DNA of 64,000 nt from Nannobrachium achirus (Eukaryota; Chordata; Actinopteri; Myctophiformes; Myctophidae), in contig OY997643.1 in assembly GCA_963921795.1 (NCBI GenBank), positions 16,427,753 to 16,491,752 on the forward strand. The letters run 5' to 3'. Of this stretch, positions 109-62,650 are shown one piece after another; position 1 is the stretch's first letter; the number at the start of each line of letters is the position of its first letter. The position numbers and the translations under genes are program-made. Below the pieces are notes generated by a model. That model was not told where the DNA came from. It did no database searches and saw nothing but the letters and a program-made list of their open reading frames with translations.

Positions 109-337
109 ATATTGTCGTTGGCGGGTGGAAATCTCGTATCGCCAAATTTGTATGTTCTTTCGCAAATCATACAAAAATCGCACAAAAGTAGTGAAAACAG
201 CAGATCTACAAGCACACAGGGCCTCGCGGTGCGAGGCGTTGTGTGACTGTAGATCGGCTGTTTTCACTAGTTAAAATATTGTTTTAAATGCAAAACGGTT
301 TTGGACATACAAGATTTTCACCCGACGACGACGATAT
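109..337. mobile_element. ATAT-targeted MITE with central hairpin
   Basis: The ends are inverted repeats: near the left end TCGTTGGCGGGTGGAAA, near the right end the complement of a close variant. ATAT flanks both sides. The centre (191-267) is a hairpin with arms of about 37 bp and a 3-base tip. Related copies lie at 16486-16724 and about 44239-44435, and a partial one near 50456-50575. No coding capacity is seen. The flanking bases 1-108 and 338-574 show nothing I recognise. Confidence 0.75.
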
Positions 338-574
338 CTGAACTGTCGCTGGAGTAGCAGGAACGCCACCGTCGCCCCCTGCAATGTTGTGGCCCTCGGC
401 TTGGTACCCTAGACATAATTCGGCCCTTGGGGAAAACTAATTGAGGAACCCTGATGTATAATATTAGCACAAAGTAACAATTAGCCATTACTGACAGTTA
501 TCAGAAAATGAGACTACATATTCTTGAATAGGTTAGTTTAACAATCAGAAAATGAATCAAATCAAATGAAGACA

Positions 575-699
575 ATGTCATAACAATAATAGTTTATTTA
601 GAGGAACATATCAGCATAGCGATGTTCACATCTGATCAGTAAATTAACATCCATGGGACAAGAAGAACTTCAGACCGGGAATGCACAAAGGGGGAGAAG
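575..699 (-). other. cox6c: Probable 3'UTR last exon of cox6c
   Basis: On the minus strand a pyrimidine-rich tract ends in CAG at 702-700, and an AATAAA poly(A) signal lies at 598-593. The exon would run from 699 to about 575. It fits the GTAAGT donor that follows the cox6c stop codon by seven bases (exon end 2534). This is inferred from splice and poly(A) signals only. Confidence 0.5.
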
Positions 700-1061
700 C
701 TGGAACGACAAAAGAACATTAACAATTAATGTTTGCATCGTCTACTGGTTCTGGGGATGGGGATGTTATGAATATAACAAACAAATGATTATGCCATTGG
801 AATAAATAATAAAGTATAATTTTAAGACATGTATTGTGATTGTGTAGTGATTTTAACACATGGCCCATTTCAGGAAATTAAGCAACAGACTGAAATTAAA
901 AGAGGACTTCACCACTATCTAATGTATATCCTATTAACTTATTGTGAATGTGACATGAAAATCTTACAAAAAAAAGAAAAGAAAAAAAAGAATAGGCATG
1001 GATTTGATGGGTGCAAGCCAAACATCCACATGGAAAATGCACTGTGCCAGTCGAGCGGTTA

Positions 1062-1318
1062 ATGTGTTATAAATACATTGTAATGTAACATGTGTTATAA
1101 ATACATTGTAATGTAACATGTGTTATAAATACATTGTAATGTAACATGTGTTATAAATACATTGTAATGTAACATGTGTTATAAATACATTGTAATGTAA
1201 CATGTGTTATAAATACATTGTAATGTAACATGTGTTATAAATACATTGTAATGTAACATGTGTTATAAATACATTGTAATGTAACATGTGTTATAAATAC
1301 ATTGTAATGTAACATGTG
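1062..1318. repeat. 28-bp minisatellite, about 9 copies
   Basis: The unit, which contains TTATAAATACATTGTAATGT, is repeated with almost no variation, about 9.2 times. It lies in the presumed 3'UTR intron of cox6c. The near identity of the units suggests recent expansion. Bases 1319-1975 hold nothing I can identify. Confidence 0.95.
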
Positions 1319-1975
1319 CACGTGGCTGAAATACCCGGTCTTGATATCACAACTTAGTTCACATTTGGGGTTGGGTGTAGGTGACAATCAACTGAGCACC
1401 CACAGACAGAAACGTAAATCAGCACCCATGGTTGACAATGTCCTGTGTGCCGATGACTGATTCCGCTTAATTTAGCTTTGAAAAGTGCACACCTGCTTTT
1501 ATTTAAGGGTTTATGTGTTTTTGCATGTGTGTGGCAGTATATAGTGACTGGCAGATTTCTGCAATGCCATGATGACAAATTCACAGCAAAACGGTGGCAT
1601 GGCAAACTAATTCATTGCATTTCTCTGTTCAGACACAGCCAACAAAAAGTGTAGTGTCAAATCTGTGAAAGTGTCATGGCATGTCCTGCCCAACAAAAAA
1701 CTATGTATTCTCCCCTGAAAAAGAAAGTACCGCCAAATGTTCATATAATGACTGAGCTGTAACTTATGAGACTGGATGTCAGCAATGTTGGATGTCATAA
1801 CAGTGATTTGGCATAAGTTGCGTTTTCCTGTTTTTAATTACTTAAGCCTCATATACTTCCAAAACATTACCATTGCTCTCATGTGTCTGCCTTGGTGGAA
1901 CACTTTGCAAACCAAATTGATGTTAACAAGTACATTTTAACCCATTTAGGCCTAGAATTATTGAATGCTTTAACT

Positions 1976-2231
1976 ATTGAAAAATAGCAGATATACAAGC
2001 TCACAGCGCGGCACTCGGTGCCGCGCTGTGAGCTTGTATATCTGCTATTTTTGAAAAAGTCGTGAAAATGTGTGCAAATCTTTGAATATATGTATTTTCA
2101 AAGCGAACGTTTGTAACTCAAATTTTGCTTCTGGGGGGTCCCTGGAACAAAACATTTTGAGATGGGGGTCCGTGGCCAAATAAATATCATTTTGGGGGTC
2201 CTTCACATGAAAAAGTTTGAGAACCACTGAC
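1976..2231. mobile_element. Partial hAT-type MITE carrying a perfect hairpin
   Basis: Bases 1980-2052 form a perfect hairpin: two 34-bp arms around a 5-base tip. The right part (2110-2231) has the GGGGGTCC blocks and the GTTTGAGAACCACTG end typical of hAT-derived MITEs. A second, shorter hairpin copy lies at 2407-2460. Confidence 0.75.
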
Positions 2232-60380: not shown

Positions 60381-60381
60381 T

Positions 60382-60457
60382 TGTGTGTGTGTGTGTGTGT
60401 GTGTGTGTGTGTGTGTGTGTGTGTGCGTGCGTGCGTGCGTGCGCGCGTGCGTGTGTT
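60382..60457. repeat. (TG)n / (TGCG)n microsatellite
   Basis: A pure TG tract passes into TGCG units. Bases 60458-60960 have no recognisable feature. Confidence 0.96.
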
Positions 60458-60962
60458 AGTTTTAGTTTTTTGTTAAATGAAGTGCGAAGCTAAGGCCTAT
60501 ATCAAACTATTATTATTGTTATAGTCTAGTGAGGACCCGGGATCCTGAGGGTATTCTAGCCGGAGCATCCATTCCGATGACACAGTGATTGGCTACTGTA
60601 GACGTTGTAGTATAGCTCCCCTGTGTCTTAACAAACTTAACTTCTTCATGACTTCTATCGTTCTTTGTCTTAAGTGTTGTTGCCCCCCAAGGTTGTGTAA
60701 GCTCAGCTATAATCTTTTTATTTAAAGATACAGACTAATACATTAAACAAGGATTCCTATTCAGTCGCAAACATTTTGCAGAACTACTACGGAGTCCTAT
60801 ATTTTGCATTTGTGCATGTGTAGAGCCACTATTCCAGTTTTGCCGACTATCCCCCCGAACTGTCTGACAAGTCGGTAAGACGGACCTGCCGTCGCCCCAA
60901 CGTCTCGGCAAGGAGTGTCTTAATGTAACGCTACTTTAACCACAAACAATTAAAAAGCTATG

Positions 60963-61312
60963 GTCCATCCATCCATCTTCAACCGCTTATCCGGAATTCG
61001 GGTCGCGGGGGTAACAGTTCCAACTGAGACTTCCAGATTTCCTTATCCTGAGCAACTTCCTCCACTCCCTCAGGGAGTATACCAAGGCGTTCCCAAGCCA
61101 GTTTGGAGATATAATCCTTCCATCTGGTCTTTGGTCTGCCACGGGGTCTCCTCCCAGTGGGACGTGCATTGAGGACCTTCCTAGGAAGGCACTCGGGAGG
61201 CATCCGTACTAGATGCCCCAACCACCTAAGCTGACTCCTTTCCAAGTGTAGGAGCAGCGGTTCTACTCCAAGTCGGGTGACTGAACTTCTCACCTTATCT
61301 CTACGGGGCCGG
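60963..61312 (-). mobile_element. LINE 3' end
   Basis: The minus-strand frame of about 100 codons has SQLRWLGHLVRMPPECLPRK, GRRPRGRPKTRWKDYI and LAWERLGI, the C-terminal end of a teleost LINE reverse transcriptase, then a short tail with ATCCATCC-type repeats. 5'-truncated; clade not certain. Confidence 0.85.
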
Positions 61313-62423
61313 TTCTAGGATTCTGGTGGCCCTAAGCTAGATTTCTTTTGGTGGCCCCCCTAAACCAGGGGTGAAAGTGGCTTTAAAGTGGCTTGAAGTT
61401 CTGAAAATCAGGGACACCTCTTGGCCGTGGCTGAATACAAATCATGAAATATGAAAATGAATGATAGTGATTCACAGTTAAGCCCTAATCGTTTTGATAG
61501 TTTAATATGTTAAAAAGACTTACAGTAGCAAGTTCACACTTTTGAGTGTAAACCACACTTCACACCCAAATAGTGTCTAGACATATTATGTCTGAGAAAC
61601 GTTAACATTTCCTTCTTCTGCTGCATGTTTTTAAAAGTGTTGCGAGTAGCCTACTGAAAACTGAATTTGATATTTCCGTGCCCTCTGGTTTTAACAAGAA
61701 ACATGGAGACTGCCATGCTCAACTGAAACATTTTCAGACTTATCAGAATGAGAAAACAAAGCGACCTAACCTACAGGCATTGTATTGAATGAGAGCAGGG
61801 TGGAGAGCAACTGTGGTTCAACAAGACCGTCATTGATTTTTTTATTATGCATAGTAATTTTGTATTTACATGTTTTTATAGGATATTTGTATGCTTCTTA
61901 TATGGACCCCAGGAAGATTAGCTGTTGCTCCAACATCAGCTAATGGGGATCCATTAAATCCCCTACAATATGTGCACCTGCACCTGATGGAGGCAATGCA
62001 TGCTATACAGGTCACAGGTTAAACTGCATACTACACAGTGACTAGGGAGTCAGTCGCAGCCAATGAAATTCGTGCTGAATTCAGATGTCATGAAAGCTGT
62101 GAAGAAGCTGTGAACAACACACTGCCCTACTTCATCATTCTGAGGCTCGATGGATTTTACATTGTCACACATTTTTAAGTTCTGTATCTGGTCAGGAGTT
62201 TTTACTTCTCCAAATTAACTGCACAGAGCTGGCTGCATGACAATTTCAATGATGATGTCTGGGTTGTGAGCTGCACAGAATGTTAAGGTTCTATGCAAGG
62301 CTACAATGCAAGCACCATTCATGTTAAAGAAATACGAATATTCAGTATGGGGTCCCTGCTTCATCTCTCTATCAGCTAATAGGTCCTTGGCTGGAAAAAC
62401 ATTGAAGACCCCTTATCTACATC
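61313..62423. other. Intergenic stretch without a recognised gene
   Basis: Unique-looking AT-rich sequence. I see no coding exon, RNA gene or clear element in it. Confidence 0.5.
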
Positions 62424-62650
62424 AGTGGTTCTCAACCTTTTCTGGCTGTGACCCCCCAAATAATCATATTTTAACTGGGGACTCCCCTACCCTGACGAGC
62501 ACTATAAGAATTGAGGCATTACATTTTGTATAACACGGTTCTATTGTGAAAATAGCAGATCTACATGCTCGTGAGCATGTAGATCAGCTATTTTCACAAT
62601 TTCAGCATAACATATTTGACAATTTGGCCAATGTTTAATTTGTCATTTTA
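62424..62650. mobile_element. Left half of a hAT MITE with hairpin
   Basis: CAGTGGTTCTCAACCTTTTC starts it, as at 8470. The hairpin at 62543-62600 has 28-bp arms, one mismatch and a 2-base tip. The right half of the MITE is missing. Confidence 0.85.

Follow-up and report, generated by a model that had tools for sequence, protein, structure and literature searches.

Analysis of a 64,000-nt stretch of the Nannobrachium achirus genome (assembly GCA_963921795.1, contig OY997643.1, positions 16,427,753 to 16,491,752, forward strand; hereafter the window), together with searches of the whole genome, reveals that one hairpin of about 75 bases, with a stem near 35-44 bp, forms the core of miniature inverted-repeat transposable elements (MITEs) that differ in their ends and target sites. 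The shared core is real and very abundant, and nested transposition and hitchhiking explain part of its distribution. In the reading we favour, to which we assign a probability of roughly three in four, the hairpin is the palindromic centre of small donor MITEs, the donors became nested in host MITEs, and the composites were amplified with the hairpin hitchhiking. Specifically, small non-autonomous donors (class 1 and TTAA types) would transpose by means of their own ends and insert into other MITEs, mostly of the hAT type, and the composites would then multiply through the transposition machinery of the host MITE. MITE cores are thought to derive from their own parents, and an earlier, sequence-only reading of the window had on that ground taken a shared core to suggest that the hairpin is itself mobile, is copied between elements, or helps them spread; in at least two host families, H and K, the hairpin was acquired and not inherited from the host's parent.

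The hairpin is present at all 14 window sites that the sequence-only reading had listed as near-complete, and about a dozen half hairpins are also present, as it had claimed. An arm profile search finds 31 arms of at least 12 bits in the window; reversing the window leaves 0, and 20 dinucleotide shuffles average 0.00. Thirteen window hairpins were folded (the fourteenth, 43460-43520, was left out; the outer part of its right arm is missing), and each of the 13 is more stable than every one of its 200 shuffles, with z from -7.7 to -16.6. A genome-wide search for AAATAGCAGATCTACAAGC allowing up to 2 mismatches, of the kind proposed earlier, gives 351,999 forward and 351,640 reverse matches in 1,658,514,493 bases (1.66 Gb), against 2 forward and 2 reverse matches for the reversed pattern. 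These approximately 704,000 matches, against 4 in the control, are arms and not hairpins: in a 200-kb sample (twenty 10-kb stretches, one at a fixed position on each of 20 contigs, chosen without regard to content), 72 of 113 arms of at least 10 bits belong to 36 full hairpins, a density similar to that of the window (32 arms in 64 kb).

The elements that hold the hairpin have different termini. In a 288-kb set we identified 24 elements with YAGNG termini and 8-bp target-site duplications (at most 1 mismatch; 1 in a shifted control); 13 hold arms, directly or nested, and 11 hold none. The termini of the arm-holding elements include CAGTGGTTCTCAACC, CAGGGGTCTTCAACG, CAGGGGTTCCCAAA, TAGGGATRGGACGAT, TAGGGCTGTCACGAT, CAGGGGYGTC and others, at least six in number, bearing out the claim that one hairpin lies in the middle of elements from families whose ends differ. 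Hosts A, C, D, F and H have the 8-bp target-site duplications and YAGNG-type termini of hAT elements. The AGGGATAGGACGAT elements, previously set apart as a non-hAT type, belong here as well, having TAGGGATRGGACGAT termini and a perfect 8-bp duplication, ATGTGGAC. The families distinguished earlier partly merge: the hairpins at 8581, 52706, 62543 and 3305 are in one family (family A, also class 2), and those at 1980 and 2407 are in another.

Sequences flanking the hairpins fall into classes that are mostly non-homologous beyond the stem. In particular, 171 comparisons between flank sets of window hairpins, some sets being from one family, show no clear homology past the stem: the match of c1L with c1R is expected, class 1 being palindromic; p46470 and p4747L represent one family; c3a and c5, from different classes and AT-rich, match at p=0.0006; and weaker flank pairs have p=0.005 and above. 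Flank clustering, also proposed in the sequence-only reading, resolves 175 arms (window plus sample) into 25 clusters of at least 2, some of which are local duplications or one tandem array (loci L004, L014, L020 and L026). Six classes account for 43 of the 55 full hairpins (class 3, 14; T/D, 11; A, 6; class 1, 6; C, 3; F, 3), and 5 of the 55 have both flanks unclustered. C and D have some 40 nt of flank in common (cluster 1) next to one arm of the hairpin and not next to the other, a pattern that would fit a half-swap at the palindrome and that an eroded T element nested in C would give as well. With the caveat that C and T/D share this one flank, the flank classes do not describe one family with diverged ends, and the hairpin is not confined to a single parent lineage. 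Two local arrangements were seen in the same data: L026:3501-4023 and L026:6550-7077 form a local duplication of about 3 kb with the same hairpin pair in each copy, and L004:600-740 is a tandem array of at least five copies of a 25-bp unit equal to the hairpin arm (GCTTGTAGATCTGCTGTGACTTACA), the arm having become a short satellite.

The junctions of host H show the hitchhiking route. Three H copies with different 8-bp target-site duplications (GTTTAGAC, GACTATAA and ATCTATGG) have a class 1 MITE inserted at the same site. The predicted empty site consists of the two host flanks joined with one ATAT, and a pattern of the two flanks separated by 0-20 bases occurs 66 + 66 times (132) when counted genome-wide, against 0 in the control, the filled copies being those known from the 288-kb set; the exact predicted sequence is present in 92 of 100 H junctions among the matches listed. 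H thus exists with and without the insert at the exact junction, the outcome for which the sequence-only reading had proposed to look. Eight empty loci were fetched: six have both H termini around the junction, spanning 285-344 bp, three of them with perfect 8-bp duplications, and the remaining two yielded the right terminus alone. Most simply, an H copy received a class 1 MITE and the composite went on to multiply as well. We take the direction to be gain rather than precise loss because the filled site has a 4-bp duplication and because class 1 ends occur in other contexts (L008, L023, and window 109-337 and 16486-16724).

A second host, K (CAGGGACGTGCTGG), is likewise found with and without a hairpin-bearing insert, and its junctions show the same route: two copies are filled (L019 and L026, with AAAT duplicated in L026) and one is empty (L011). 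For D the route is strongly suggested. The unit TTAACCACTTGAACC...hairpin...GGTTCAAGTGGTTAA lies at a single D site, gttttcagatat|TTAA ... TTAA|tataaaaaaggag, in six loci (L002, L012, L024, L026, L027 and L036; in L024 and in L027 an end has decayed); the hairpin is retained in five and lost from L036. Searched for genome-wide, the empty junction of D gives 2 matches, each with 3 mismatches, and 0 in the control. For C, for A, and for a hAT MITE at 43460..43814 that we presume by eye to be Tol2-like, we infer the same route. The TTAA-type end seen in D also lies at one site of the Tol2-like MITE in L011, in L015 and at window 43544, and a second TTAA-type end was not found in these copies.

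The donors are of two kinds. Class 1 elements have terminal inverted repeat CGTCGTTGTCGGGTGG, a 4-bp ATAT or AAAT target-site duplication, and the hairpin at the centre. TTAA-type elements have terminal inverted repeat CCACTTGAACC or are of the CCCATTTAGGCC type, which has two mirror hairpins, as in L001, where CCCATTTAGGCC-type ends bound the pair; the class 3 TTAA end at window 1937 recurs at L001, L019 and L040. L016 holds a TTAA insertion of roughly 130 bp, bounded by CCCATTTAGGCC ends, that L024 does not have, which supports TTAA duplication for this end type. T and the CCCATTTAGGCC type both have TTAA at their target sites, and the ends of the two are CCAC and CCCA; a piggyBac label was considered for them, and since these ends lack the terminal hallmark CC[C/T]T given for that group (PMC2872659) they are filed as TTAA-type only. 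Class 1 compares with the 2-bp TA duplication of Tc1/mariner elements in that ATAT contains TA; the AAAT duplication at the K site does not fit. TTAA-type ends without a hairpin were also seen at an apparent shared host site (L042:2260-2433 and window 47446-47507), and the polarity of the hairpin appears, by eye, to be reversed relative to the class 1 flanks between h1 and h10 (window 195-263 and 44328-44396). None of the junctions examined has breakpoints at the hairpin itself, and a search by eye for target-site duplications flanking the hairpin found none. The established junctions lie at donor ends and not at the hairpin; the unit shown to move is a small MITE in its entirety, centred on the hairpin and complete with ends and target-site duplication. 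The earlier proposal that the hairpin is itself mobile or is copied between elements stands as to acquisition, in at least two families, and gives way as to the unit that moves.

The two arms of the hairpin vary together. The permutations used here ignore relatedness, and families carry founder states; by these permutations, whose numbers overstate independent events, arm identity in the window set (12 of the 14 hairpins, h5 and h9 being left out) is 251/288 where permutation gives a mean of 226 (0 of 20000), and at the 6 outer stem positions 45/72 cases match, compared with 30.6 under permutation (40 of 20000). In this set, 17 cells carry a change that is identical in the two arms (13 distinct by class), 34 have a change in one arm, and 1 has different changes. 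In a larger set (53 of the 55 full hairpins, after arm-match and duplicate filters), arm identity is 1000/1166 against 972 permuted (0 of 10000), and the outer 8 positions match in 253/424 cases against 158 (0 of 10000), with values near background from position 9. Such covariation is what either template switching or selection would be expected to produce. At 16600-16642 the right hairpin arm has been swapped for an exact inverted copy of flank, yielding a new perfect hairpin, which is the footprint expected from template switching (PMC8794818). The arms stay largely complementary as the families diverge, most likely because template switching at the palindrome would copy one arm from the other; for the presence of one core in donors with different ends, the account we lean towards is replacement of the ends, or half-swaps at the palindrome. 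A broader proposal, which we hold tentatively and at somewhat less than even odds, is that the hairpin is transposase-independent cargo, passed among TTAA and ATAT donors by template switching or half-swaps and into hAT elements by nesting. If true, the hairpin would be a very heavily copied genome module and, as a "core domain" of DNA transposons, could be likened to the conserved domains found in short interspersed elements (SINEs).

Selection on pairing could also preserve the core, if the hairpin were a functional RNA or DNA structure, such as a small RNA or a binding site for a transposition or replication protein. The covariation, the stem length and the concentration of the fewest arm mismatches near TCTACAAG are consistent with this account, which we nevertheless consider unlikely: template switching without selection also yields covariation, at gathering thresholds the window has 0 matches to Rfam, arm 14-15-mers are absent from the open-licence papers searched, and at least 534 class 2 copies have lost most of the hairpin, either before or after they last moved. 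An A.G mismatch at arm position 7, present in 8 of 12 window hairpins, was considered as a sign of function and set aside, other positions being alike in the larger sample.

Class 2 bears on whether the hairpin, a palindrome of 75-90 bp, inserts alone, perhaps at the dyad of short palindromes and without the usual target-site duplication. A genome search for the two class 2 stem flanks within 30 bases of each other gives 270 + 264 copies (534), against 0 in the control. No virgin empty site, with the flanks simply joined, is present among the 100 listed of these 534 short-core copies; each of the 100 retains at least 7 bases between the flanks, mostly arm stubs such as AAAATA-TTTT, and because the stubs remain we read the short-core copies as hairpin deletions. 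Three paralogues in a P450 (CYP) gene cluster form such a deletion series: the hairpin is full at 55453, reduced at 21223 and present as stubs at 42296. Local sequence lent no support to a direct-repeat (joined-flank) explanation of class 2. Independent insertion of the hairpin gains from the stem itself, which runs about 8 bp past the core in sequence that is family-specific but complementary, so that many families resemble a core set midway in a short palindrome of their own, and from the five hairpins with both flanks unclustered. It is improbable all the same: no empty site broken at the core turned up, the listed class 2 copies (100 of 534) do not include the bare join, and the established junctions lie at donor ends. 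Descent of the hairpin from one hAT lineage whose ends later diverged draws on the likeness, by eye, of the A, D and H termini (CAGNGGTYYYCAA), on local matches in GGGACCCC-rich sequence between A and the class 3 hAT piece, and on the flank that C and D share, but it has little chance of being correct, being contradicted for H and K by copies without the hairpin at exact junctions, and disfavoured by the mostly non-homologous flank classes and by hairpins in elements with 4-bp duplications.

Several observations weigh against our preferred reading, in which donors were nested in hosts. As to the hosts, gain in H was judged from junctions rather than from a tree; K's own 8-bp target-site duplication is not established; the only clean D empty site (L044) is a D body with a single-TTAA junction, in which no right terminus was found, and may be a precise excision; and L043 is a hairpin deletion that retains the donor ends. 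As to the donors, the L016 insert with CCCATTTAGGCC ends shows no visible hairpin, no donor ends were recognised flanking the class 2 or F hairpins, and the listed class 2 copies include no virgin empty site. The donor types share the core and not the flanks, so that nesting shifts the question one step back. As to the arms, one-arm changes in the larger set (160 cells) far exceed same-change cells (23; 6 have different changes), and mismatches remain at arm positions 7, 11 and 21 (22, 16 and 19 of 53); because one-arm changes outnumber paired ones and mismatches persist, arm correction is far from complete.

The closest precedent is the CMITEs of the coral Acropora (Wang et al. 2010, PMC2872659), which, in the passages of that paper used here, have different terminal inverted repeats and a common 75-bp internal region more conserved than those repeats, occupy TTAA sites, form tandem arrays, gave a new composite element by insertion of one CMITE, and have a core of unknown origin. 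The families with different ends, the common internal core, the TTAA sites, the arrays and the composite all have counterparts here. The CMITEs as described there are only piggyBac-like TTAA elements, whereas the present core also occurs in 4-bp ATAT/AAAT elements and in several families of hAT MITEs, has the form of a near-perfect hairpin, and reaches about 704,000 arms; the comparison is of descriptions and not of sequences. The nearest case in fish, also compared by description, is Angel, a palindromic MITE with long inverted repeats that can form a stem-loop, is also found inside the hAT element Tol2, and shows compensatory arm changes in two long non-coding RNA copies, according to the portions considered of PMC8151067 and PMC3636048; the present core is in many families. 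The V domain common to SINEs and the MER6 MITE, as outlined in PMC6887750, is similar in being a conserved core that spread on a burst of a DNA transposon and different in being a SINE domain, compared with a hairpin that has several hosts. Template switching is described in PMC8794818 as creating and repairing hairpins, and would on that account leave perfect arms with paired changes and build new hairpins out of adjoining sequence, as seen at 16600-16642; it is a mutation mechanism and not a mobile family. Pack-TIR elements gain foreign cores through template switching (FoSTeST; PMC8277862, in the part consulted), whereas the junction-supported cases here are nested transpositions with target-site duplications. 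Mitochondrial hairpin elements are the subject of PMC2800124, as far as its text was drawn on. No published description of the present hairpin was found in the open-licence literature, repeat databases being outside that search, and the hairpin patterns had 0 matches in viral contigs and prokaryote genome contigs, a result that is uninformative because it is expected of an animal repeat.

In the present case a single core extends across element types, and filled and empty junctions reveal its route in two host families. This allows a direct test of whether a core helps MITEs to spread, by comparison of H with and without it, and of how the arms of a palindrome stay paired. The common core could also lead repeat libraries to lump unrelated families together.

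The window elements are collected in Table 1. Of the individual assignments made earlier, the sites hold, with these amendments: the outer left arm is gone from 3305-3375, the hairpin at 44327-44397 is one of the ATAT class nested in another element, and 45140-45200 has an ATAT-class right flank and lies within another element.

Table 1. Elements and hairpins in the window (TSD, target-site duplication)
Position	Element	Ends and TSD	Hairpin	Remarks
109..337	class 1 MITE	ATAT...ATAT, included	central, 191-267	ends aligned to 44243-44432 and 16486-16724; fold z -12.5
1937..2501	class 3 region	TTAACCCATTTAGGCC end at 1937	mirror hairpins 1980-2052, 2407-2460	hAT-like piece between (by eye); inverted pair I5
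2805..3218	hAT-like MITE C	TAGGGATRGGACGAT, TSD ATGTGGAC	2926-3011	
3258..3407	family A (class 2) fragment		3305-3375	outer left arm deleted
4614..4878	hAT-like element	8-bp TSD, 1 mismatch (GTCTAGCT/GCCTAGCT), by eye	decayed, 4741-4790	
6528..6898	hAT MITE D	CAGGGGTCTTCAAC, TSD CCATAGCC	6707-6775	T-type arm flanks
8470..8886	hAT MITE A (class 2)	CAGTGGTTCTCAACC, TSD CCTTAACA	8581-8653	
9492..9551	class 1 half			truncation near hairpin apex
16486..16724	class 1 copy		16600-16642	right arm replaced by 18-bp exact inverted flank copy
21223..21260	reduced hairpin			paralogue of 55453-55534; third paralogue 42296-42313 with stubs only
32974..33050	full hairpin			flanks assigned to no class; right flank class 1-like by eye
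43460..43814	hairpin and half hairpin	TTAA-type end 43544-43557		in and beside Tol2-like hAT MITE
44137..44643	hAT MITE H	CAGGGGTTCCCAAA, TSD ATCTATGG	44327-44397	nested class 1 MITE 44243-44432
45130..45275	class 1-like right flank and hairpin		45140-45200	inside CAGGGGTGGGCAAC element
46251..46846	hAT shell	CAGGGGTMGGYAACC, TSD 1 mismatch		half-hairpin fragment 46466-46605 inside
52699..52917 (-)	family A copy			truncated at hairpin base
55453..55534	full hairpin			in CYP-cluster paralogous repeat
62423..62653	family A copy		62543-62600	

The window includes segmental duplications within a P450 gene cluster, one pairing 9519-10031 with 21932-22447 and another comprising 20538-21328, 41634-42385 and 55166-55598, and two window open reading frames match Pfam P450. 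Elements at 9831 and 22247, within these duplications, are truncated at or near the hairpin apex. A 28-bp tandem repeat of about nine perfect copies occupies 1062-1318.

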